In this document: piece after piece, positions 2,758-42,726 of the stretch
How positions within the stretch are numbered: the first letter of the stretch is position 1
Layout: each line of letters starts with the position of its first letter
DNA from: Protofrankia sp. CiT1
Lineage (GTDB): Bacteria; Actinomycetota; Actinomycetes; Frankiales; Frankiaceae
Direction: 5' to 3'
NCBI RefSeq assembly: GCF_917627385.1
Contig: NZ_CAKJTL010000107.1
Location: 1 to 45,270, forward strand
DNA length: 45,270 bases
Translations under genes and position numbers: made by a program
The notes under the pieces: model-generated
Databases searched by the model: none
What the model was told of the DNA's origin: nothing
What the model saw: only the letters and a program-made list of their open reading frames with translations

Positions 2758-4008
2758 TCAGGTCGCCATCAGGTCGAAGGCGACTTTGACCGCGCCAAGC
2801 CGGCCCGCGCCGAGCGCGTGGTCCAACGCGTCCCGCCAACGGTCCAACGGGTAGGCCGCCGACACAACCCCGTCCAACGGGGCAGTTGCCGCAAGCTCCA
2901 GCGCTCGGACGAAGTCCGCCGGCGCCACCGCCGCACCCGCCGCCCCGTCTGCTGGCAGCCCCCGACCGGCGCTGGACGCGTAGGTGCCCACCAGCTCCAG
3001 CTCACGGAACCACAGCGGCGTCAGATCGACCGGCCCGGTGGGAACACCGGACAGCACCACCCGCCCACCGGCGCGGGTGACGCGCAGCGCCGTCGACAGC
3101 GAGGATGCGCTGCCGGCGCAGTCGATCGCGATGTCCACGCCGCCGAGCAGATACGGCGGTCCGGCCTCCGGTTCCAGTTTGAGCGCACGGGTGGCACGGC
3201 GCACCCCGCCGACCGCGGACGCCGGTGAAATGATCTCGTCCGCCCCGAACAGCCGCGCGCGTTCCACCTGGTGACGGTGCTTGGCTACCACCGTCACCAG
3301 GCCGGCCTTGGTGTAGGCGCGCAGCGCCAGCAACGTGAACAGCCCGACCGAGCCGGCACCGATGATCAAAATCCGGTCGCCGTCCCCGGCCCGTGCCCGC
3401 AACGCGGTATGTACCGCGCACGCAAGCGGCTCCACCAGCACCGCCCGCTCGTCGGGCAGGTCCGCCGGCACGGGATACAACTGCGAGCGGTGGGCAACCA
3501 GGGACCGGCTCCACCCGCCACCGGTCCGCGCGCAGAACCCGGTCTGCAGACCGGGGGACAGATGACCCACAGTGATATTGTCACAGCGGCTGGTGTGCCC
3601 GGCGGCACAACCAGCACATGCGGGCAGGCCCCGGGCGGCGCAACCGAGAACCGGATCGAGCACCACCCTGCTGCCGGCCGGCAGCTCAGTGCCATCGGTG
3701 AGGGTGACGCTGGTCTGGGTGTCGGCCACGATCTCATGCCCGGGGACGAAGGGCATGGACACCAGCGACGTGAAGTAGAGCGACAGCTGCCCGGTGACGG
3801 TGGCCAGGTCCGACCCGCAGATCCCCGACAGCCGCGGGCGGATCGGAACCCACCCCTCGCCCGGCACGGCCGGCGCCGGCCCGTCGGTCAGCCGCAGCGG
3901 CGCTGTCATCCCGGCCGCGGCGCCGGCCAGGGCCGGCAGCCGGCCCGACAGCGTCCGGGTGGCCAGGTAGCGGGGCATCGACCGGTACAGCTCCAGCGCG
4001 CGGCTCAC
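2758..4008 (-). CDS. Zinc-dependent medium-chain alcohol/polyol dehydrogenase
   Basis: A 416-residue MDR-superfamily dehydrogenase. It shows GICGSD with the catalytic zinc cysteine (Cys64), PGHE (His91-Glu92), four cysteines for the structural zinc (Cys122, 130, 133, 141) and a GAGSVG Rossmann loop near residue 217, so it should be an active NAD(P)-dependent oxidoreductase of an alcohol or polyol. The N-terminal 40 residues are longer than usual. Its start overlaps the stop of the reductase-HAD gene by four bases (ATGA), so the two are translationally coupled and probably work in one pathway. It could interconvert the alcohol/aldehyde made by the neighbouring reductase or a polyol head group; the substrate is unknown. 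Confidence 0.9.
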   Translation of the reverse strand: MSRALELYRSMPRYLATRTLSGRLPALAGAAAGMTAPLRLTDGPAPAVPGEGWVPIRPRLSGICGSDLATVTGQLSLYFTSLVSMPFVPGHEIVADTQTSVTLTDGTELPAGSRVVLDPVLGCAARGLPACAGCAAGHTSRCDNITVGHLSPGLQTGFCARTGGGWSRSLVAHRSQLYPVPADLPDERAVLVEPLACAVHTALRARAGDGDRILIIGAGSVGLFTLLALRAYTKAGLVTVVAKHRHQVERARLFGADEIISPASAVGGVRRATRALKLEPEAGPPYLLGGVDIAIDCAGSASSLSTALRVTRAGGRVVLSGVPTGPVDLTPLWFRELELVGTYASSAGRGLPADGAAGAAVAPADFVRALELAATAPLDGVVSAAYPLDRWRDALDHALGAGRLGAVKVAFDLMAT

Positions 4009-6368
4009 CGATCGACACCCGGCCGTGATGTCCGGACGCGGCCGCCCGGAGACAGGGCTGCGGCCCCACCGCCGAAAAGATCCCGAGCCCGGGCGGCGGC
4101 ATGGATCGTGCGTTCATGCCGGCTGCCGACCACGGCGCGTGGCTCACCACGGGTCGAGGCCCACTGCTCGATCGGCCAGCCGGAGCGGCGGGCCACCCGG
4201 TACAGCGGCAGGTCCGGGTTGACCGCGACCGGATTGCCGACCGCCCGCAACATCGGCAGATCCGACTGGCTGTCCGCGTATGCCCACGACGCCGCCAGAT
4301 CCGCGCCCACCCGCTTGGCATAGTGATCCAGCCAGGCGGCGCGGGAGTCACCGACCAGCGGTGCCGATACCAGGCGCCCGGTGCAGCGCCCGTCCGCCCC
4401 GACCGCGAGCCGGGTGGCGACGACCTCGTCGAACAGCGGCGCCAGCGGACGGGTGAGAACCTCGACCGCCCCGGTGAGCAGGACGGTCCGGTGCCCGGCG
4501 TCGCGGTGCTCGCGGATCCGGCGGATCGCCCCCGCCTTCACCCGGCGCAGCAGGATGTCACCGGCTACCTCGTCGACGAGGCGGGCGAGCTCGCCGGGAT
4601 CGGCACCGGCGTAGCGCGTGTACACCGCCCGGATGAGATGCCCCCGGTCGCGCCGCTCCGCCCGCACGTACCCGGGCAGCGCGCGGGCAAGCTGCGCAAG
4701 CTCACGCCCGCGCGCCGCGAACGTCTGGTCGGTCAGCCGCAGCCACAGGTAGGACTCAACCACGGTCGAGGACACCAGCGTCCCATCCAGGTCGAACACC
4801 GCGAGCGTGTCCGGACCGCCGGCGAGGGCGTGCGACGCCCGCCGGGGCGGCGCCGGGGGCTTGTCCGGGCCGCGGAAGGTCGAGGTGACGCTCGGAAAAT
4901 GGATCTCCTGCAGGTAGGTACGCCAGTCATAGCAGGCCGGGTCAAACCCGAACCGCTCGGCGTCACCCGCATCGAGTGCCTGGTGGAGCCTGCGGGTCGC
5001 GTCATCAACGTAGACCAGCTCCGCCTTGGTGTAGGAACGGTAGAGGTCCTGGTAACGCCGCAGGAACGACAGCCGCTCATCGAACTGCTCCAGGTCACGG
5101 GCGGCCTGGCGGACCCGGTCGGAGCGTGGGGCGTACCCGAGCGCCCTTCCCGCGATCTCCGCGAAACGCTCGCCACGGCGCAGCTGGCCCTCGACCGTGG
5201 CGGCCCCGGCGAACCGCCAGTGCGCGGCCGCGACAGCGCCACGGCCGGGCTTGGACAGCGGATGGCGCTCGAAGTACTCCCGGACGTTCTCGTAAAGATC
5301 GCGAAACAGCAGCGGGTTACGAAAACCGGAACACACCGTGTAGTACGCCGGGGCCGATGCCGGCGGCGGGGCCGCGGCCGCGGCCAGGATCGCGTTGACC
5401 ACCAGGTCGACAGGGATGATGTCGATGATCCCGTCCGGGGACGCGGGGAAGTCCGGCAGCTCCCCGCGGCCGTAGGCGAGGATCAGCGGCTCGGCCATCT
5501 TGAAGCCCTCGATCCAGCCCGGGAACGGGCGGGCCAACGCGCTTTCGATGATGGACGGCCGCATGATGGTCAACGGCAGACCATCACGTTCGGTCTCCAG
5601 GTAGCGCTCGGCAAGCGCTTTGGTGAACGTGTAGCAGTCCGTCCAGCCGAGCACACGGGCCCGTTCGCCGCCCGCGTCGACGAGCCGGCGCTCCACCCAC
5701 CTGCGCCGACGCCGTTCAGCCTCTCGCGAGACCGTCTGCGCCCCAGCCCGGATGTGCTCGCCTTCAGCCTCGGCCCGGAACCCGCGCAGCGTCTCCGGGG
5801 CCCGGGACGCGTCCTCCGCCGCACGCCGTGCCCGCTGTGCGGCGGCCTGCTCGGCCCGCCAGTCGACGGTGTGCGCAAGGCGCCCCTCGGCCACGTGGCC
5901 CGACCGCAGGCCCGCCACGTACGCCGTGGAGATATGCACCACATGAGGGCGTGCGCCGCTGTCGCGGATGGCCCGCAGCAGCTCCTGGACACCCCCGAGA
6001 TTGGTGGCGAAACCCGTGTCGATCGGCGGGTCGAACGACACCTCGCCGGCACAGTGGACGACAGTGTCCACATCCGCCGGAATGGCCGGAATCCGTTCGA
6101 GATCGCCTTCAAGGACCGTGACCCGCTCCCGCAGCACCTGTTCAACGCCGTCGGCGCCAAGGCGTTCGCGCCACGGCGCGAACGCCGGCTTGGCCACGAG
6201 ACCGGCAAGACGGGCCTGCCCGCTCCTGCCCGCGCGGGGACGGATGAGCACGACCACCCCGGTGCCGGGCAGGTCGGAAAGCAGCCGTTCCAGCAGTGCC
6301 TCGCCCACGAAGCCGGTCGCCCCCGTGACGAGGACACGCTTGCCCGCGAGCCGCTCGGCCAGCCCCAC
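4005..6368 (-). CDS. Fatty acyl-CoA reductase-like SDR fused to a HAD-IB phosphatase
   Basis: A 787-residue two-domain protein. Residues 10-480 form an extended SDR of the male-sterility/fatty acyl-CoA reductase type, with TGATGFVG (15-22) for NAD(P) binding and the YxxxK pair Tyr246/Lys250; this family reduces acyl thioesters to aldehydes or alcohols. Residues 520-740 form a SerB-like HAD-IB phosphatase with FDLDGT (nucleophile Asp526, Asp528), a TGA motif II and a final DSQSD motif. In Mycobacterium the HAD-IB domain is instead fused to PlsC, so the same functional partners occur here in another arrangement. It is the first gene of the leftward operon. The start is GTG 6368 behind a strong purine-rich site (GAGAGGTGAG). 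The chemical link between reduction and dephosphorylation is not known. Confidence 0.88.
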   Translation of the reverse strand: MGLAERLAGKRVLVTGATGFVGEALLERLLSDLPGTGVVVLIRPRAGRSGQARLAGLVAKPAFAPWRERLGADGVEQVLRERVTVLEGDLERIPAIPADVDTVVHCAGEVSFDPPIDTGFATNLGGVQELLRAIRDSGARPHVVHISTAYVAGLRSGHVAEGRLAHTVDWRAEQAAAQRARRAAEDASRAPETLRGFRAEAEGEHIRAGAQTVSREAERRRRRWVERRLVDAGGERARVLGWTDCYTFTKALAERYLETERDGLPLTIMRPSIIESALARPFPGWIEGFKMAEPLILAYGRGELPDFPASPDGIIDIIPVDLVVNAILAAAAAPPPASAPAYYTVCSGFRNPLLFRDLYENVREYFERHPLSKPGRGAVAAAHWRFAGAATVEGQLRRGERFAEIAGRALGYAPRSDRVRQAARDLEQFDERLSFLRRYQDLYRSYTKAELVYVDDATRRLHQALDAGDAERFGFDPACYDWRTYLQEIHFPSVTSTFRGPDKPPAPPRRASHALAGGPDTLAVFDLDGTLVSSTVVESYLWLRLTDQTFAARGRELAQLARALPGYVRAERRDRGHLIRAVYTRYAGADPGELARLVDEVAGDILLRRVKAGAIRRIREHRDAGHRTVLLTGAVEVLTRPLAPLFDEVVATRLAVGADGRCTGRLVSAPLVGDSRAAWLDHYAKRVGADLAASWAYADSQSDLPMLRAVGNPVAVNPDLPLYRVARRSGWPIEQWASTRGEPRAVVGSRHERTIHAAARARDLFGGGAAALSPGGRVRTSRPGVDR

Positions 6369-10165: not shown

Positions 10166-10201
10166 CACAGTCATGCCCAGCTGACATGACTGTGGATGGG
10201 C
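10159..10201. terminator. 17-bp perfect inverted repeat between SMR and lnt-ppm genes
   Basis: Arms 10159-10175 and 10185-10201 are perfectly complementary, with a 9-base loop CCCAGCTGA. There is no T-tract, as is common for actinobacterial terminators. An upstream possible ATG of the lnt-ppm gene lies within the 3' arm, an argument for the later GTG start. Confidence 0.65.
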
Positions 10202-10252
10202 AATCCGCCGACCCCGTCGATTCCCCGCGCGGCGGTGGCCGACACTGGGACT

Positions 10253-12826
10253 GTGACAACCCAGGACACGCTGACCGTGGGTCGCAGTGCCGGCGCATCG
10301 CAACCAGGCGATCCAGCCGATGCGGTCCGCCCTGGCGGGGATTCCCGGGCGGCCCGCCAGGCCGGCGCCCGGGCCCGTCGACTGACTCGGCCGTTGCTCG
10401 CCGTCACAGCCGGAATCGCGTTGTACCTGGCATTCCCTCCGGTGGGGATCTGGCCGTTGGCCCCGGTTTCGGTAGCCGTCATCACCCTGCTGGCGCGCGG
10501 CGTGCCACTGCGGCGCTCGGCCGGTCTGGGCATGCTGTTCAGCCTCGCCTTCATGCTGTCCATGCTGCGCTTTGTCATGTTCGTCGGCCTGGACGGCTGG
10601 ATAGTCCTCTCGATCGGGGAAGCCGCCCTGCTCGCCCTGATAGCGCCCGCGACCACGCTGGTCATGCGGGTGCGTGGCTGGCCGTTGTGGGTCGCCGCGG
10701 TGTGGGTCGGCCAGGAGGCACTACGCGGACGCGTGCCGTTCGGCGGCTTCCCGTGGGGGAAGCTGGCCTTCACTCAGGCGGACACACCACTGACACCGCT
10801 GGCGGCGCTGGGGGGCTCCCCGCTGGTGACCGCCGCTGTCGCGGGCTCCGGCGCGCTGCTCGCCGCCGCGGTCCTCGCACTGAGCCCGGTGGGCGCGCTG
10901 GGCTCACCGGGCACGGGTACGCCCGCCGCCGGCCGCGGGCGTACCCGTCGGGCCGCGGCCCTGGCCTGGCCGCTGGGTGCCGCCGTGGCCATGACGGCGG
11001 CCGGTCTCGCCGTGCCGCTGCCGACCTCCGCGCAGGCCGGCAGCGCACAGGTGGCGGCGATCCAGGGCAACGTGCCACGGGCCGGTGGCCTGGAGGCGCT
11101 CGGGCGCATGTTCCAGGTGACCGCCAACCACATGACGGCGACCGAACGCCTCGGCACGGACGTTACCGCGGGACGCGTTCCGCATCCGGACCTCGTTCTG
11201 TGGCCGGAGAACTCCTCGGACGTCGACCCGTTCGTGGATCCCCGCGCCGCCGCCATGCTCGACCGCGCGGCGCGGGCAGTGGGCGCCCCCCTCCTCGTCG
11301 GCGCGGTACTTGACGGGCCGGGCACGGGGAAGGTGCGCAACGCGGGTCTGGGCTGGAGCGGCGATGGCTGGACCGGCCAGATCTACGTCAAGCAGCATCC
11401 GGTGCCGTTCGCGGAGTACCTGCCGGGCCGGGCCGTCCTGGAGAAGCTCGTCAAGCGGTTCGCCACCGAACTGCCGGATGACTTTGTGCACGGCAGCAAC
11501 GTCGGGAGTCTCCACATCGGCACAGTCACGATCGGTGACGTCATCTGCTTCGAAGTAGCATATGACGGTCTTGTCCGCGATACCGTCAACGCGGGCGCGC
11601 AGCTGTTGGTGGTACAGACCAACAACGCCTCATTCGGGCGCAAAGGCGAAAGCGAGCAACAACTGGCAATGACCCGGATGCGAGCGGTAGAGCATGGACG
11701 AGCGGCGGTCCAGGTATCCACCAGCGGCCAGAGCGCGCTCATCGAGCCCGACGGCCGGGTCATCGCACAGTCCGGCCTGTACGAGACCGCTGTCCTGACC
11801 GCATCGCTCCCGCTACGCACCAGCCGAACGCTCGCGGACCGCGTCGGCGCGGCCCCGGAGATTCTACTAGTGATTCTTGGACTACTCGCTGTAACGTTCG
11901 GCCTGCGGGCAGGGAAGTCCTCCCGCGAGCGGGGCGGGGCAGGCCGCGAGACCGCCGGCGAGGCCGCCGGCGACACTGAAAGGAGCCGCGTGGACGACGA
12001 GCGCGTTCTCGTGTGTGTTCCGACCTACAACGAGCGCGAGAACCTTCACAACACGGTCATCCGGCTGCGCGCGGCCAACCCGGACGTGGACCTGCTGGTC
12101 ATCGACGACGCGAGCCCGGACGGCACCGGGGAGATCGCCGATGGGATCGCGGCGAGCGATCCGCGCGTCCACGTTCTGCACCGGGCCGCCAAAAACGGCC
12201 TCGGCACCGCCTACGTGGCCGGTTTCGACTGGGGTCTTCGACAGGGCTACGACATTCTGGTCGAGATGGACGCCGACGGCTCCCATCAGCCCGAGGAACT
12301 CCCACGCCTGCTCGCGGCCCTGCGTGACGCCGATCTGGTGATCGGCTCCCGCTGGGTGACCGGGGGAGAGGTACGCAACTGGCCACGGTCACGCCTGCTG
12401 CTCTCACGCGGGGCGAACGCGTACGTGCGGGCCGCCCTCGGCATGCCGCTTGCGGACGCCACCGCTGGTTTCCGGGCCTACCGGGCGCGTGTCCTGAAAA
12501 GCCGTGACCTGCAGCAGGTGGCGTCACAGGGATACTGCTTCCAGGTAGATCTCACCTGGCAGGCGTGGCGGTCAGGCTTCCGGGTCCTGGAGATCCCGAT
12601 CACTTTTGTCGAACGCGAACACGGACGATCGAAGATGAGCCGCGCGATCGTGGCGGAAGCCCTGTGGCGGGTCACCTGGTGGGCACTGACAACCCGTCAC
12701 GATCGGCAGGCCACACCCGGCGGCGGCCACCTAGCCACCGGGGGGCACATCGGCAAGGAAGGCGGGTACGTTCCCCTGGCCCGCGCAGAGGCCGCGGACC
12801 GGTCCGCGACGGGCGTGTCCCCGTGA
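10253..12826 (+). CDS. Apolipoprotein N-acyltransferase fused to polyprenol monophosphomannose synthase (Lnt-Ppm)
   Basis: An 857-residue bifunctional protein. The N-terminal part (to about residue 550) is Lnt: several membrane helices, then a nitrilase domain with the catalytic triad Glu319 (WPENSSD), Lys380 (YVKQHPVPF) and Cys432 (VICFE); it adds the third acyl chain to lipoproteins. The C-terminal part (about 580-857) is a GT-A glycosyltransferase of the Ppm/dolichol-phosphate-mannose synthase type (VPTYNERENL, VIDDASPDGTG, EMDADGSHQPEE), which makes mannosyl-phospho-polyprenol for lipoglycans and protein mannosylation. M. tuberculosis Ppm1 has the same fusion. GTG 10253 is chosen as start because the alternative ATG lies in a hairpin. 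GTG 11990, preceded by AAAGGAG, could start a separate 278-residue Ppm. Confidence 0.93.
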   Translation: MTTQDTLTVGRSAGASQPGDPADAVRPGGDSRAARQAGARARRLTRPLLAVTAGIALYLAFPPVGIWPLAPVSVAVITLLARGVPLRRSAGLGMLFSLAFMLSMLRFVMFVGLDGWIVLSIGEAALLALIAPATTLVMRVRGWPLWVAAVWVGQEALRGRVPFGGFPWGKLAFTQADTPLTPLAALGGSPLVTAAVAGSGALLAAAVLALSPVGALGSPGTGTPAAGRGRTRRAAALAWPLGAAVAMTAAGLAVPLPTSAQAGSAQVAAIQGNVPRAGGLEALGRMFQVTANHMTATERLGTDVTAGRVPHPDLVLWPENSSDVDPFVDPRAAAMLDRAARAVGAPLLVGAVLDGPGTGKVRNAGLGWSGDGWTGQIYVKQHPVPFAEYLPGRAVLEKLVKRFATELPDDFVHGSNVGSLHIGTVTIGDVICFEVAYDGLVRDTVNAGAQLLVVQTNNASFGRKGESEQQLAMTRMRAVEHGRAAVQVSTSGQSALIEPDGRVIAQSGLYETAVLTASLPLRTSRTLADRVGAAPEILLVILGLLAVTFGLRAGKSSRERGGAGRETAGEAAGDTERSRVDDERVLVCVPTYNERENLHNTVIRLRAANPDVDLLVIDDASPDGTGEIADGIAASDPRVHVLHRAAKNGLGTAYVAGFDWGLRQGYDILVEMDADGSHQPEELPRLLAALRDADLVIGSRWVTGGEVRNWPRSRLLLSRGANAYVRAALGMPLADATAGFRAYRARVLKSRDLQQVASQGYCFQVDLTWQAWRSGFRVLEIPITFVEREHGRSKMSRAIVAEALWRVTWWALTTRHDRQATPGGGHLATGGHIGKEGGYVPLARAEAADRSATGVSP

Positions 12827-36965: not shown

Positions 36966-37886
36966 TCAGTCCTCAAGTGGCGCTGTCGTGGGATGCGAGC
37001 CCGCGCCGGATCGCAGGTACCGGTACCAGACAAGCGCGGCGGGACGGGCTTGCGGGTCGCCGGAGACGCTGGCCCGCAGCAGGTCGACGCCGGTCCGGTC
37101 CAGCACACCGCCGGCGGCGGCCACGGCGTCATCGGCGGTGACCATTCGGCCGGGCACGAGGGCACGGACGATGAACAGGCCGAGCTTGAACAGATCGGAA
37201 CTGATCGACTGGGGCTCATGCGCCGCGGGGGGAAAGAAGTCCGGCGTGTGCCCCTGATCGACGACCGGCGCGTTGCCGACCTTTCGCACCGCGTCACAGT
37301 CCACCAGAAGCACGTCCGGAGTCGGCCACAGGCGGTACAGGACGTTACGGGCGGAGATATCACCGAAAACAATGCCCTGATTGTGCAGAAACGCCACGAG
37401 ATAAGCCAGCCGCAGACACAGCCACCAGCGCTGCGCGCGGCTCGGGAGCGGCAGGCCGATAGATCGTAGCCGGGCGGGGTCGACGAACAGCGATCGCGCC
37501 TCGTTCGGCTGGCGCTCCGGCCGCCCCGCCGGTGTCGGGAACAGCTGGAAGAACGCATCGGGTATGAGCCGCATCACAACCCCGGCCACCCTCGCCCGGG
37601 CGGGGACATCACCGTTGTCGACGACGATGCGAAGCGGCCAGGTCAGATGCGTGTCAAACCACAGACGCTGTTCCGCCGGCAAAGCCAGCCGCAATGCGAT
37701 GATGTTGGCCATGCCCTGGGGCGGCACCCGCCCCAGGGCGGAATGATATTCCTTGTAGACGAGTGGCACAGCCACCCCAGGGAGATCAAAATCGGGCAGC
37801 CGGTAAATGCGCGCCTGGCCGCCGCGGCCCAGTGGCTCGACCCGGCCGAGTTGTTGCCGCGCAACAGCGGCATCCTGCCATCTCAT
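36966..37886 (-). CDS. Soluble protein-kinase-like protein of the TerY-P type cluster
   Basis: A 306-residue protein with a divergent kinase fold: glycine loop LGRGGQARIY (19-28), the ATP lysine in VYKEY (Lys45), the catalytic loop GDISARNVLY (Asp176, Asn181) and DCD (196-198) in place of DFG. All key catalytic residues are present, so it may phosphorylate proteins, but HRD is GD-type and the activation segment is short (HTPDFFPPAAHE). No membrane helix. Its ATG follows the stop of the vWA gene by nine bases, so it is last in the leftward cluster. It differs from the membrane-anchored kinase of the same cluster. Confidence 0.82.
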   Translation of the reverse strand: MRWQDAAVARQQLGRVEPLGRGGQARIYRLPDFDLPGVAVPLVYKEYHSALGRVPPQGMANIIALRLALPAEQRLWFDTHLTWPLRIVVDNGDVPARARVAGVVMRLIPDAFFQLFPTPAGRPERQPNEARSLFVDPARLRSIGLPLPSRAQRWWLCLRLAYLVAFLHNQGIVFGDISARNVLYRLWPTPDVLLVDCDAVRKVGNAPVVDQGHTPDFFPPAAHEPQSISSDLFKLGLFIVRALVPGRMVTADDAVAAAGGVLDRTGVDLLRASVSGDPQARPAALVWYRYLRSGAGSHPTTAPLED

Positions 37887-37895
37887 GCCGCCCGC

Positions 37896-38606
37896 TCAGT
37901 ACCGGCTGTCCGGATCGATCCAGGACTCGGGTGGATCGACGATAACCGTGTCAAGGGCATGGACGTCCGTCTCATCAATCACAACCATCTCCTGGTGGCC
38001 CGAAGCCACGACGCTCCGTACGATGATCTCAGTCAGGTTCTTTATCGCGCTTTCCGGACTGGCTGACCGGCTCTGTATGAACAACGGCACCGTCGGTGCC
38101 GGATGAGCCAGCGCCCGCATGATTTCTGGATTCGAGTCGGCGACGGCACAGGGAATGACGTTCGGTGTGCTCTGGCACTCCCTGAGCAGCGCCGCAAATG
38201 CCGCCTCCCAGGCGCCGGGGGGATCGTCGAAGGGCTCGCCGTCGCTGAGGAAGAACACCCCGGGCCGGCCCACGGCAAAACCGTCGGCCTCCAGCTGACG
38301 GCGGTCGCGGTCGACGGTGGCTCGCAGCAGGTTGAACGCGGGCGCATACCGGGTGCCGTCATCACGGCATGCCAGGCGCGGGAGCGTCGCCGTGTCGAGC
38401 AGGTCGCAGAGCGGAAGTACCGTGCGGCTGCCACCGGCAAAATCAATCACACCAACCCGGACCCGCGCCGCGGCGACCGGATCGTGCGCCAGCGCCTCCC
38501 CGATCCGCCGCAGAATGAGGTTCGCCGTGTCCAGGCGCGGCCCGTCCATCGACTGCGAGACATCCACCACGAGGTAGAAGGGAATCAAGGTGGTTCGACC
38601 GTACAC
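37896..38606 (-). CDS. von Willebrand factor A (TerY-like) protein, second copy
   Basis: A 236-residue single vWA domain. The metal-ion-dependent adhesion site is intact: DVSQSM (Asp15, Ser17, Ser19), the threonine in DGTRYAPAF and the aspartate in FFLSDGEPFDD. No signal peptide. Such proteins act as adaptors in kinase-phosphatase assemblies. The last 40 residues hold acidic motifs (VIDETDVHALDTVIVDPPESW) that may be a binding tail. Its stop is nine bases before the soluble kinase start. It has a 112-bp gap from the upstream kinase gene, so a second promoter is possible. Confidence 0.85.
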   Translation of the reverse strand: MYGRTTLIPFYLVVDVSQSMDGPRLDTANLILRRIGEALAHDPVAAARVRVGVIDFAGGSRTVLPLCDLLDTATLPRLACRDDGTRYAPAFNLLRATVDRDRRQLEADGFAVGRPGVFFLSDGEPFDDPPGAWEAAFAALLRECQSTPNVIPCAVADSNPEIMRALAHPAPTVPLFIQSRSASPESAIKNLTEIIVRSVVASGHQEMVVIDETDVHALDTVIVDPPESWIDPDSRY

Positions 38607-38718
38607 AGCTACTTCCTTCTGCCGATCTCATCGGAACGCGCCCACCGGCCCGCCGGCGCGCTGTCGGCCAAATGCCGTCGAACAGCCGCTATCGAGTGGA
38701 CTGCCATCAGGCGGGCCG

Positions 38719-39852
38719 CTATCGGGCCGCGAGGAGCAGGATTACCAGCACGGCGATCAGCAGAGCCCCGACCACGAGAAAAACATTGGCGGCCTTCGTC
38801 CTGGACGTACCGGACGCGTCCACAACGCTGTCCGTCAACAGCGGAAAGGGGTCGAACTGGCCCGCTTCGGCCCGCCCGCACCACGGGCATTCCGCCAGAT
38901 GCCCGCTGTAGGTGTGCTCCGGCCGGGCGTCACAGCTTTTCACATCAGCCCAGGCGAGATCGAGCGCTTCGGCCCATTCCTGCGCGGCGGGGCGCGTCCC
39001 GGCCACGGCGTGGCCGGCCCCGAACGCCTGCCTGGCCAGCTCCGCGACCCGCGGCGGGAGCACGCTGGGCGCAATCGCCTCGGCCGGGACCTCGACCTCG
39101 CTCGGCGCCGTCAGGACGGTGATGCCGTACTGGATGTTCGTCTCCGGCGACGGGTCGACATCCAGCGGCCGAGCCGGAATACCGTGAAACGGATGGTCCC
39201 CGCACAGCAGCAGCTGGCACACCAGCACGGCGAGGGTAAACCTGTCCGTTGCGACGCTCTTGGGCCCCGCCAGCTCGGGCAGCAGTTCAGGTGCGGCGTA
39301 TTCCGGGGTAACGGTATGGCATGAGAACACCTCGCCGGCATGGGAGAACTGCAGCGAGTCACAGTCAAGAAAGCTGATCAGGCCGTCCGCCCGGACATGG
39401 ATGTTGGATGGCGCGAGATCACCCACGACAATCTCCTGGTCATGCAGGATCGCGACCAGCTGAGCCAGGTTGCTGGCCACCCCCAGCAGGAATCTCCAGT
39501 CCTTGTCCGGGAATACTGTCAGGCGGGTGAGGTGCTCCAGGAGCGTGCTCAGCGGATGATCGTTGGAACGGCGCATGACGTACCCGAGCACCGCCCCGGC
39601 GGAATCGCGGGCCAGTTCCTGCGGCCATACCAGTCCCGGATGGCCGGATCCAGGCTCGACGAACTGCGACGCGGTGAAAGCCCGGAGCATGTACTCAAGC
39701 CGGCGGCCGCGCTCGGCGTCGGGCTCCCGGTAGATCTTCACGGCCTGCCGGGAATCAGCATCCACGGCGTAGACAATCGACTCGGTTCCGCTGCCGAGGA
39801 CAGTGGAACAGGTCAGCCTGCGTCCGTCCACAAAAATCTCGGTCACCGACAC
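38719..39852 (-). CDS. Membrane-anchored protein kinase-like protein
   Basis: A 377-residue kinase-like protein with glycine loop VLGSGTESIVY (18-28), Lys39 in AVKIY, catalytic GDLAPSNIHV (Asp145, Asn150), DCD (163-165) instead of DFG and an intact APE (187-189). After the kinase domain comes a short CPWC pair that could hold metal and a single C-terminal membrane helix (about 352-375). The catalytic residues predict an active kinase facing the cytoplasm. Its GTG start overlaps the PP2C stop by ten bases, so the two are coupled as a kinase-phosphatase pair. Confidence 0.88.
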   Translation of the reverse strand: MSVTEIFVDGRRLTCSTVLGSGTESIVYAVDADSRQAVKIYREPDAERGRRLEYMLRAFTASQFVEPGSGHPGLVWPQELARDSAGAVLGYVMRRSNDHPLSTLLEHLTRLTVFPDKDWRFLLGVASNLAQLVAILHDQEIVVGDLAPSNIHVRADGLISFLDCDSLQFSHAGEVFSCHTVTPEYAAPELLPELAGPKSVATDRFTLAVLVCQLLLCGDHPFHGIPARPLDVDPSPETNIQYGITVLTAPSEVEVPAEAIAPSVLPPRVAELARQAFGAGHAVAGTRPAAQEWAEALDLAWADVKSCDARPEHTYSGHLAECPWCGRAEAGQFDPFPLLTDSVVDASGTSRTKAANVFLVVGALLIAVLVILLLAAR

Positions 39853-40706
39853 AGGACCGCCACCAGCAGCGTCGTGTCGTCCTGGGTCACTTCCGTGACC
39901 GCTTCCCGCAGCAGCAGCTGGACGAGCCCGGAGGCATCAAAATGATCATCGTCGAGTAATCCGAGCACGGTGTCGATCACCGGCTCGGTAGCCACCGCCA
40001 GCCGGCCCTCCGGGTCACGTCGCAGTGTGACGGGGATCAGACCGTCGGTCGACATGAACACACCGGTGATCCACGGGTCGTAGACCGCGTTCACCCGGGC
40101 AGCCCGGCTCGTGTCCGAGGTCAGGAAGACCGTCTGGCTGGCGTGCTCGGGGTCAGCGCTCCCGGCGTCGAGCAGATGCAGGTTGGTCTGTCCCCCCTCA
40201 CCGGTGCGGACGACGATGAAGCCGTCTCCGATGCTCAGATAACCGATCAGGGGATAGGCAAGCACGACAACCGTCAGTGTCGTCGCGAACTCGCCGATGT
40301 GCTCCCGCCCGGCGACCGCGGTGACAACTCGACGAAACTCCGTGACGATTTCCTCATGCGCGGCTGCCAACAGCTGGCGCAGGTCAGGCGCGGTCGCGGG
40401 CCGGCCGCTGGGGTGGATCCGGTCGCGCACCAGCCGGGTGGCCATCGCGACCGCGAGCCGGGATCCCTCGGCTGACCGCGGGGCGGATCCGGCGCCGTCG
40501 GCCACCGCCAGCACGTGGACGTCGGGCAGGGATCCCCGCTCGTACAGTGAAAGGTGCGCGAACGAATCCTCGCACCATTTCCCTTCCCGCACGTGTGAAT
40601 AGCCCTGGACGCTGGCCCCCCGGATACGCCAACGGTAGGGCCGGACGCCGCCCGCGCTTCTTCCCGTGGGCGCGGGCTGCCGGGCGGGCTGCCGGCCGGA
40701 GGTCAC
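39843..40706 (-). CDS. PP2C-family serine/threonine phosphatase
   Basis: A 287-residue PP2C_2-type phosphatase. Metal-binding residues are seen in CEDSF (Glu46, Asp47), VADGAGSA (Asp70, Gly71), the central STDG and the final QDDTTLL. It should remove phosphate from Ser/Thr on proteins, probably substrates of the neighbouring kinases. No membrane helix. The GTG start overlaps the vWA stop by four bases (GTGA) and the stop overlaps the kinase start, so three genes are translationally coupled: vWA, phosphatase, kinase. Confidence 0.92.
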   Translation of the reverse strand: MTSGRQPARQPAPTGRSAGGVRPYRWRIRGASVQGYSHVREGKWCEDSFAHLSLYERGSLPDVHVLAVADGAGSAPRSAEGSRLAVAMATRLVRDRIHPSGRPATAPDLRQLLAAAHEEIVTEFRRVVTAVAGREHIGEFATTLTVVVLAYPLIGYLSIGDGFIVVRTGEGGQTNLHLLDAGSADPEHASQTVFLTSDTSRAARVNAVYDPWITGVFMSTDGLIPVTLRRDPEGRLAVATEPVIDTVLGLLDDDHFDASGLVQLLLREAVTEVTQDDTTLLVAVLCR

Positions 40707-41446
40707 GCCTGCCTCGGCTGGTAACCGCGCAGCTTGTAGTTGGGATCCTCCACGCTGCGGTCCAGTTGCAGCAGGATGTCACTGAAATCGAACCGGCCGT
40801 ATACCATGTTTCGTTCCGGCGCGAACGCACGCAGGGTTTCCTGGCCCAGATCGTCGATGGGTGGGATGCCGATCGCGAAGAGGGCAAGCTTCTGAGCAGC
40901 CTCCAGGCCGCGAATCTCTCCTGCCAGCGGGTGCCAGTCCGACGCCGGCTTCCCCTCGTCGTCGGTCGGCCTGCCATCGGTGACAAGCCAGACGAGCGGC
41001 CGCTTCCAAGTCACCTTTTCCTGGGCCAGCTGCCGCTTACGTGCTTCGATAACCGAGATACTGAGCCGAATCGCCTCGACCAACGGTGTCACGCCGTCAG
41101 CGCTCAGCTTCGGTGGCCGAAAGCTATGGGCCGGGACGAACGGAGTCCGGTCGCTGCGCGGATCGAAACTCTCGTCCCCACGCCACTTGCGCACTCCCCC
41201 GGCGCCAAACGTTATGAGCGCGAACTCGGTGGTCGCCGCCATCTTCTCGCCCGCGTGCATGCTTCGCGCCCAGCTGGCGAGCGCGTCGTTGAGCTTGTCG
41301 ATCGCCTCGCCGCGCATGGAATAGGAGGTGTCCATGCAGAGGACCACGAGCACGCGATGACTGGGCCGGGGAATGGGGATGTTCCCAATAACGTCCCGTG
41401 GCTGACGGCGGTCCGTTGCCCGGTCGGGGCTGTTACGAGGTGCCAT
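40703..41446 (-). CDS. von Willebrand factor A (TerY-like) protein, first copy
   Basis: A 247-residue vWA protein with intact adhesion site DTSYSM (Asp39, Ser41, Ser43), the threonine in DGVTPLVEAI and the aspartate in WLVTDGRPTDD. It resembles TerY of the TerY-P triads (vWA, PP2C, kinase) linked to tellurite-type stress systems. Its C-terminus (FDFSDILLQLDRSV) is the usual end of the family. Coupled to the PP2C gene and 86 bp downstream of the membrane-protein gene. Confidence 0.88.
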   Translation of the reverse strand: MAPRNSPDRATDRRQPRDVIGNIPIPRPSHRVLVVLCMDTSYSMRGEAIDKLNDALASWARSMHAGEKMAATTEFALITFGAGGVRKWRGDESFDPRSDRTPFVPAHSFRPPKLSADGVTPLVEAIRLSISVIEARKRQLAQEKVTWKRPLVWLVTDGRPTDDEGKPASDWHPLAGEIRGLEAAQKLALFAIGIPPIDDLGQETLRAFAPERNMVYGRFDFSDILLQLDRSVEDPNYKLRGYQPRQA

Positions 41447-41532
41447 GGTGTGATCTGTCCCCGTTCCCAGTTCCAGTAGGCCGAAAAAACACGATCATGG
41501 GCTCCGAACCGCGCCGGATGTCTCAGCGCACG

Positions 41533-42726
41533 CTATGGACGAGGCCCGGAGCGGCCTTGCGCCAGCCACGCCTGCAACCCATCCACCTCGTGCGTCCTCA
41601 ACACCACCTGGCTGCCGACGCGGGGCCGAGGCGCGTCGGGACCCCCCATCCATCGGGCCCGGTAGAGCCCCCCGTCGACCGCGACATAACCCTGCGGGCC
41701 AAAAGCGGAATGCACCGTGCCGAGCTGGCTGACGGCTATGTTTGGCGGCGCGACAGGTGACACTGGCCGTGATTGGGCCCGCCCCCCGTCCATGCTGTCC
41801 GCGTCACTGGCGGGCTCCTCCCCGGCATGGTCCCCGCGCCGGCGGCCGATGGCGAAGCCAAGCACGAGCATCACGCCCGCAACCAGCACATAGGCCAGCG
41901 TCGACAGTATCGATGACAGTACCGAATGGGGCTGAGCCGGCGGGGACCCCGGCGGGGTCACGGGTGATTGCGCCGTCGGGAAAGGGCTGGCGGACGGCTG
42001 GGCCGGATCGGCCAGGCTACCCAGCGTCTCCACCTGTGACACCCGCCCAAGGACGACAGCCAGGAAAAAGGAATCACCGCTGGTCGTGTACATGCCCGCG
42101 GTCCGTTCCGCCGGGGTGCCCGCCACCTGCTCCTGACATTCCTTCACGCAGGACAGCGCCAGCCCGTGGTTATGGGACAGCGCGCCGCGGGCCTGGTCCC
42201 AGTCAGCGAACCGGTGGTCGGCAATCGCCAGCAGCAGCGAGCCAGCCGTCCCGAGATCCGCTGGACCGCCTGTCGCGGGCCCAGCCAGCGACACGGCCTG
42301 AGACGACACGGCCTGAACGGCGAGCACCGCACGACGACGGAAGATCGAGTCCAGATCGGTCAGCGTGGTGGGGTCATTGGCCAGCGTGGCGGCGCGGGCC
42401 ACCCGCACCACAACGGCTCCGCCAGTTTCCGGTATGCCTTTGAGCAGGGTGTTCAGATTTCCCAGAACGCTTCGGTCGACCTTCTCCGGCAGCTCAACGA
42501 CACGGATCGCAAAGGCGGTGTCACCCGCAGCTCCCAGTGGGGCAAACGCGGATACCGGCGGCACCCCCCAACGGAGGATGAACGACCCCAGGGCAAGTGT
42601 CAGGAGCAGGCCTACGACGCTGACGGCCGCCCCGGCCGCGGGCAACAACGCCCATAATCGGGCCGGGCCTCGCCCGGCAACGCCCGTTTCACCCACTGTG
42701 CGGCAATAATGGCCTCTTCGCAGCAA
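41533..42726 (-). CDS. Two-pass membrane protein with extracellular domain and NfeD/OB-like tail
   Basis: A 397-residue protein. Helix 1 (24-50) and helix 2 (270-294) flank an extracellular part of about 220 residues with two cysteines (Cys193, Cys197) and a Pro/Ser-rich stalk. The C-terminal 330-392 is cytoplasmic and has the strand pattern of an NfeD-type OB domain (SQLGTVHSAFGPQGYVAV, then RVGSQVVLRTHEVDG). No known domain was recognised in the extracellular part. It is the first gene of the signalling cluster, hence a candidate sensor. The start is TTG 42726 after a G-rich stretch; GTG 42696 (residue 11, with TATTGC upstream) is an alternative. Confidence 0.75.
   Translation of the reverse strand: MLRRGHYCRTVGETGVAGRGPARLWALLPAAGAAVSVVGLLLTLALGSFILRWGVPPVSAFAPLGAAGDTAFAIRVVELPEKVDRSVLGNLNTLLKGIPETGGAVVVRVARAATLANDPTTLTDLDSIFRRRAVLAVQAVSSQAVSLAGPATGGPADLGTAGSLLLAIADHRFADWDQARGALSHNHGLALSCVKECQEQVAGTPAERTAGMYTTSGDSFFLAVVLGRVSQVETLGSLADPAQPSASPFPTAQSPVTPPGSPPAQPHSVLSSILSTLAYVLVAGVMLVLGFAIGRRRGDHAGEEPASDADSMDGGRAQSRPVSPVAPPNIAVSQLGTVHSAFGPQGYVAVDGGLYRARWMGGPDAPRPRVGSQVVLRTHEVDGLQAWLAQGRSGPRP

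Follow-up and report, generated by a model that had tools for sequence, protein, structure and literature searches.

What kind of signalling system is encoded by six leftward genes at positions 36966-42726 of a 45,270-nucleotide stretch of Protofrankia sp. CiT1 DNA (contig NZ_CAKJTL010000107.1; this whole stretch is called the window below)? The initial annotation took them for a doubled cluster of TerY-type vWA, PP2C phosphatase and kinase genes, coupled to a membrane sensor of their own. The TerY-P triad, which citing papers attribute to Anantharaman, Iyer and Aravind (2012), comprises a TerY-like vWA protein, a phosphatase resembling PP2C and a kinase that ends in a zinc ribbon, and has been proposed to be a metal-sensing phosphorylation switch (PMC11090510). 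Judged by its gene families, the locus is one complete TerY-P triad plus half of another, since its two vWA genes, like its two kinase genes, fall into separate families. On balance we favour the reading that it forms a membrane-tethered phosphorylation switch, whose single PP2C probably opposes both kinases.

The six-gene cluster in Protofrankia

All six minus-strand open reading frames were recovered (Table 1), running from upstream to downstream as membrane protein gene, vWA1, PP2C, kinase1, vWA2 and kinase2, and the overlaps and the short gap claimed by the initial annotation proved exact: vWA1 and PP2C share four bases (GTGA), PP2C and kinase1 share ten, and nine bases separate vWA2 from kinase2. 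The remaining gaps are 86 bases between the membrane protein gene and vWA1 and 112 bases between kinase1 and vWA2. Pfam placed VWA domains on genes 2 and 5, PP2C_2 on gene 3 and Pkinase on gene 4 (E 3.4e-11). The overlaps point to tight coupling of the six genes in one transcription unit, as had been proposed.

The same gene order was found in loci L009, L010 and L011, which together with the window represent four of the five Protofrankia genomes searched; in the fifth, which is 92% complete, neither kinase1 nor kinase2 was matched. All three relatives retain the 10-base overlap, and both in which it could be measured retain the 4-base one; the 9-base gap recurs in two out of three, the third having 18 bases. 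With order and most junctions conserved in three other Protofrankia loci, the cluster is not a chance grouping, and the genes stay together within the genus, a point on which the initial annotation had made its case depend. No DNA similarity was detected between the window and the flanks of L009, L010 and L011 outside the six genes, which therefore behave as one block; some flanking genes are common to L009 and L010. At 0.671, the G+C fraction of the cluster nearly equals the 0.678 of the remaining window and thus gives no compositional sign of recent import. Ratios of nonsynonymous to synonymous substitution (dN/dS), from two Protofrankia comparisons, were 0.08-0.12 for the vWA genes and 0.23-0.26 for PP2C and the kinases. 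In a scan of genome contigs, close relatives of kinase2 were confined to Protofrankia/Frankia cluster-2 genomes, i.e. to organisms that nodulate plant roots.

Table 1. Genes of the cluster in upstream to downstream order, with positions in the window.
Gene	Position	Strand	Features	Evidence
Membrane protein	41533..42726	-	397 amino acids; TTG start; G-rich ribosome-binding stretch	Hydropathy, alignments, AlphaFold2, Foldseek
vWA1, TerY-like	40703..41446	-	Complete metal-ion-dependent adhesion site (MIDAS), D39-S41-S43...T120...D157	Pfam VWA/VWA_2 just above cut-off
PP2C-type phosphatase	39843..40706	-	Metal-binding Asp intact	Pfam PP2C_2, E 2.4e-31
kinase1, Ser/Thr kinase fold	38719..39852	-	K39, D145, N150, D163; zinc ribbon; C-terminal transmembrane segment 357-375	
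vWA2	37896..38606	-	Complete MIDAS, D15-S17-S19...T85...D122	Pfam VWA_2, E 2e-11
kinase2, divergent kinase	36966..37886	-	K45, D176, N181, D196; soluble	

One triad and half of a second

Genes 1 to 4 form one module, made up of the membrane protein, a vWA protein, a PP2C and a zinc-ribbon kinase anchored in the membrane at its C-terminus. A TerY-P triad is recognized by adjacent or overlapping genes for a TerY-type vWA protein, a PP2C and a zinc-ribbon kinase, Ter genes not being required, and the predicted products here correspond to this: a TerY-like vWA with a complete MIDAS, an adjacent PP2C with its catalytic aspartates and a kinase with the zinc ribbon. The likeness to the triad, already seen in the initial annotation, is supported both by Pfam and by residue conservation. 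vWA1 matches proteins annotated as 'TerY-C' from Klebsiella plasmids (E 2e-13), and its MIDAS residues are invariant in 20 out of 20 relatives, in which the PP2C aspartates (D47, D70, D221, D277 and others) are kept without exception as well. In kinase1, the lysine, catalytic aspartate, asparagine and metal-binding aspartate are invariant in the 20 module relatives, as are four putative zinc ligands (C307, H313, C322 and C325) of a putative metal-binding site. Every catalytic, MIDAS and zinc-ligand residue that was checked thus appears intact. Anchoring to the membrane, another of the earlier claims, is borne out by the hydrophobic C-terminal tail that kinase1 carries in 19 of the 20 relatives; the exception, L009, carries an ambiguous base at this point, and its frame is probably shifted.

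In the vWA tree, vWA1 clustered with 20 sequences whose loci are of the same type (SH-aLRT branch support 95), and vWA2 fell into a separate group of eight (100). In the kinase tree, the group containing kinase1 has 22 members (97), among them one from the streptomycete locus L087, where no gene for a membrane protein with an OB tail was seen; the group containing kinase2, which is separate, has nine (99). Both trees come from a quick search and contain several long branches; the split into families is reliable, the fine branching order is not. Local duplication, which the initial annotation had assumed for both pairs, was rejected on these strongly supported splits.

The second pair also looks intact at the residue level, with the MIDAS of vWA2 kept in seven out of seven relatives and the kinase2 motif residues in eight out of eight. 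The match of kinase2 to Pfam Pkinase is sub-threshold (9e-4), and PDB kinases were matched at E 3e-4. Most distant relatives of kinase2 have a transmembrane tail, which the Protofrankia proteins lack. The known distribution of kinase2 covers Frankiaceae plus L094, a locus from another family in which vWA2, PP2C and kinase2 occur together. In other Frankiaceae, the kinase2 relatives adjoin a vWA2 relative, and a PP2C is adjacent in L041, L042 and L043 (L044, a short contig, was left out of this comparison). A PP2C is hence found beside the pair in its relatives wherever the neighbourhood is readable, and the Protofrankia locus has none belonging to vWA2 and kinase2. Most simply, Protofrankia would possess the vWA2-kinase2 part of such a set but no phosphatase dedicated to it, and we infer that the PP2C of genes 1 to 4 serves this part as well.

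In L041 (8187-16490), the vWA2, kinase2 and PP2C genes are preceded in one gene run by genes for what by eye resemble a band-7-like, a large repeat/NTPase-like and a cyclase-like protein, and L042 (7822-15065) has vWA2, kinase2 and PP2C along with a large protein as in L041. Pfam returned nothing convincing for the band-7-like or the large protein.

The membrane protein and the module in other actinobacteria

Hydropathy gave two hydrophobic segments in the membrane protein, at 33-51 and 273-291. The layout is the segment at 33-51, an extracellular alpha/beta domain at about 72-230 with a cysteine pair (C193 and C197), a transmembrane helix at 273-291, an acidic linker and a cytoplasmic tail. 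Two segments agree with the two-pass protein of the initial annotation, but in relatives the first looks like a signal peptide, with A-x-A-like sites following it in the alignments. Segment 33-51 could therefore be either a cleaved signal peptide or an anchor, and a single-pass type I topology seems as likely as a two-pass one. The description as a sensor likewise stood in part: the helix and tail are conserved, but the extracellular domain is absent in some relatives.

Although the protein has no full-length Pfam match, an AlphaFold model built with 13 sequences (an earlier one with five reached a mean confidence, pLDDT, of 47) contains a five-stranded domain at 335-388 with a local pLDDT of about 84-90. 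The top Foldseek match of the model, assigned to the tail from its length and strand content, was 3wwv, in which a stomatin operon partner protein is represented by its C-terminal domain (E 6e-4, probability 1.0, TM-score 0.71 by target), and further NfeD-type matches followed lower down (3cp0, TM-score 0.69, and 2exd). Pfam NfeD was almost the only family matched by the tails, six out of ten of which hit it (best E 0.0029); the window tail scored 15 bits, where the cut-off is 29, and profile searching of the PDB with the tail found no match. Because of this combination of a structural match with weak, sub-cut-off Pfam scores, we call the tail an NfeD-like OB domain, not a confirmed NfeD domain. 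With the partners encoded in NfeD/stomatin operons the protein shares the predicted C-terminal five-stranded OB domain, whereas here no stomatin gene was recognized nearby and the extracellular part is without a confident fold match. The conserved part of the protein is the transmembrane helix together with the cytoplasmic NfeD-like tail.

The four-gene module was also found in a Frankiaceae genome of a genus other than Protofrankia (G007, locus L045). In a class-wide sample of 395 genomes, strong matches were restricted to Frankiaceae and Streptomycetaceae. A search of 298 genomes of the latter family with the vWA1 profile gave strong matches in 22; the label of this second family was inferred from its number of genera and the appearance of its sequences. 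The membrane gene with the OB tail lies directly upstream of vWA1 in all 16 Streptomycetaceae loci of the vWA1 clade. From the vWA and kinase trees, which both support the branch, we conclude that the module belongs to the published TerY-P triad as a branch tethered to the membrane.

In 14 of the 16 loci, the membrane gene is directly preceded by genes for a canonical Hanks-type kinase (Pkinase 1e-39 in L081) and for a roughly 150-residue protein weakly similar to DUF5998 or YbjN. The Hanks-type kinase of streptomycetes and the kinase2 of Protofrankia appear to represent two different ways of joining a second kinase to the module, so that an independent kinase seems to have been added on two or more occasions. 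No description of this streptomycete six-gene version (L081 4630-6238, and L131-L144) was found in an incomplete literature search.

A different TerY-P triad, in L046, is preceded by a gene (3833-4216) for a 127-residue protein with weak similarity to BOF (bacterial OB fold) and one transmembrane segment, which suggests that partners combining an OB fold with a transmembrane segment recur with triads of this type. Further TerY-P triads, of another clade and without an OB-tail gene, were seen in L083 (674-4475; same genus, genome G026) and L084 (5969-9452), each with what by eye is a restriction-endonuclease-like gene upstream.

A proposed tethered switch, its rivals and known systems

In the switch that we favour, the membrane protein, whether single- or two-pass, would present its NfeD-like OB domain to the cytoplasm, and this tail and the transmembrane tail of kinase1 would hold vWA1, PP2C and kinase1 against the cytoplasmic side of the membrane. 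To this unit Protofrankia would have added vWA2 and a soluble kinase2, with the single PP2C probably opposing kinase1 and kinase2 alike. An envelope, redox or metal stimulus would then shift the balance of kinase and phosphatase on substrates that are not encoded next door; it would be received through the cysteine pair outside the cell, through the zinc ribbon or through the metal sites of the MIDAS motifs. The protein contacts, the sharing of PP2C, the nature of the signal and the direction of signalling are what we infer in this scheme, which draws support from the conserved six-gene order, from the recurrence of genes 1 to 4 in another Frankiaceae genus and of the OB-tail gene in Streptomycetaceae, from the tree groupings, the invariant residues, the tail of kinase1 and the NfeD-like fold predicted for the tail of the membrane protein, and from the PP2C that accompanies the vWA2 and kinase2 relatives and is missing here. 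The switch proposed in the initial annotation was right in outline, wrong on duplication and over-confident on sensing; the vWA proteins, which it cast as scaffolds, may have that role. Several observations weigh against such a switch. The membrane gene evolves fast (dN/dS 0.51-0.60), the overall pLDDT of its product's model is 66, and the NfeD similarity of the tail remains under the curated Pfam cut-off. Foldseek gave no confident fold match for the extracellular domain, and some streptomycete relatives lack that region altogether, having only the transmembrane segment and the tail; sensing may thus not be the role of the membrane protein, and its extracellular sensing is uncertain. Finally, the window flanks differ from those of the other Protofrankia loci, so the neighbours offer no guess at a substrate.

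A bolder proposal, which we put forward tentatively and with less conviction, is that of a distinct actinobacterial transmembrane system in which an NfeD-like OB receptor or scaffold directly controls a membrane-bound complex of vWA, PP2C and zinc-ribbon kinase, and to which each lineage couples a second kinase of its own, vWA2-kinase2 in Protofrankia and, in Streptomycetaceae, a Hanks-type kinase accompanied by a YbjN-like protein. TerY-P triads occur widely among bacteria, while their input and cellular location are unknown; a constant membrane partner and an anchored kinase provide a concrete place to seek that input, and the branch separates the triad from its tellurite label.

The gene content also brings to mind defence or toxin-antitoxin modules of the KKP or TerY-P type, where the kinases would become toxic once an invader inhibits PP2C, and the infected cell would halt. 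KKP (PMC11341870) consists of two kinases and a PP2C and is a prophage-borne tripartite toxin-antitoxin that blocks phages, and TerY-P-like modules have been reported as stand-alone antiphage systems (PMC11090510). Weak matches of kinase1 and kinase2 to the MkoA and PD-T4-6 defence kinases and a patchy distribution agree with such a role, but the best PADLOC matches reflect generic kinase-domain similarity (E 2e-11 at best), and no PADLOC model matched the vWA, PP2C or membrane genes. With its two kinases and one PP2C the locus fits KKP in composition; the abstract of PMC11341870 mentions no vWA or membrane protein for KKP. Of the other genes examined in the window, most are metabolic, and neighbours elsewhere, seen by eye, include phosphoenolpyruvate carboxykinase-like genes in some streptomycetes and genes for oxidase-subunit-like membrane proteins in two Protofrankia, while about five streptomycete loci with common flanking gene families suggest vertical inheritance. 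A phage search gave two weak, unannotated matches. We consider a defence function unlikely.

Equally doubtful is a TerY-P triad of the ordinary kind, serving the response to stress or metals, in which the membrane gene and the vWA2-kinase2 pair would be passengers with separate functions. The TerY-like vWA1, the defining zinc ribbon and the published metal-sensing hypothesis (PMC11090510) would fit, and the 112-base gap before vWA2 could separate two transcription units, yet the membrane gene is kept in every member of the vWA1 clade examined and the vWA2-kinase2 pair in all four Protofrankia copies despite differing window flanks, and Ter genes occur on other contigs only (see below). It is very improbable that a second triad lost its phosphatase and left kinase2 and vWA2 behind as inactive remnants: the missing PP2C, the missing transmembrane tail and the sub-threshold Pkinase match would suit decay, but the catalytic residues of kinase2 and the MIDAS residues of vWA2 are invariant, and both genes have dN/dS of about 0.09-0.26 in both Protofrankia comparisons. 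The tethered switch remains our preferred account.

As the initial annotation had stated, no Ter gene was recognized among the neighbours of the cluster; this is not unusual, since Ter-free triads have been published, e.g. in CoCoNuT loci outside ter operons (PMC11090510). A search elsewhere in the genome, which it had advised, recovered nine TerD-domain matches and a TerC gene, all on other contigs, and membership of a Ter operon was rejected on these grounds. On contig C167 (L001, L151 and L152), TerD-domain and TerC-family matches adjoin, the TerC match consisting of two pieces in one frame of 415 amino acids, and this is probably the genome's own ter locus. Searching with P0002 revealed no second TerY-P in this genome.

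The TerY-P triad and kinases with transmembrane segments are already known from the literature. Differences from the published triad are the membrane anchor of the kinase, the constant NfeD-like partner and, in Protofrankia, the second vWA-kinase pair; an incomplete literature search, covering little subscription literature, found no description of an NfeD-like TerY-P partner or of the composite locus. In actinobacterial GAP1-N2 GTPase systems, kinases with a zinc ribbon or transmembrane helices are encoded beside PP2C and vWA (Kaur et al. 2020; PMC7159879), i.e. the same three activities. No GAP1-N2-like neighbour was noticed near the window or the module relatives, though no dedicated search was made, and the kinases of three loci judged GAP1-N2-like by sequence appearance (L090, L092 and L093) fell into a clade separate from the module. 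Type III-A CoCoNuTs also have two vWA genes in one operon, but their second TerY-like vWA lacks the MIDAS threonine (PMC11090510), whereas both motifs are complete here. Among the window genes examined by Pfam, no CoCoNuT/McrBC genes (CnuB/McrB GTPase, CnuH helicase or CnuE) were recognized, again without a dedicated search.

Two gene fusions were seen elsewhere in the window. The first (4005-6368) joins a fatty acyl-CoA reductase-like domain (NAD_binding_4) to a HAD hydrolase-like domain. The second (10196-12826) joins an apolipoprotein N-acyltransferase-like part to a family 2 glycosyltransferase, like the Lnt-Ppm1 fusions of actinobacteria.

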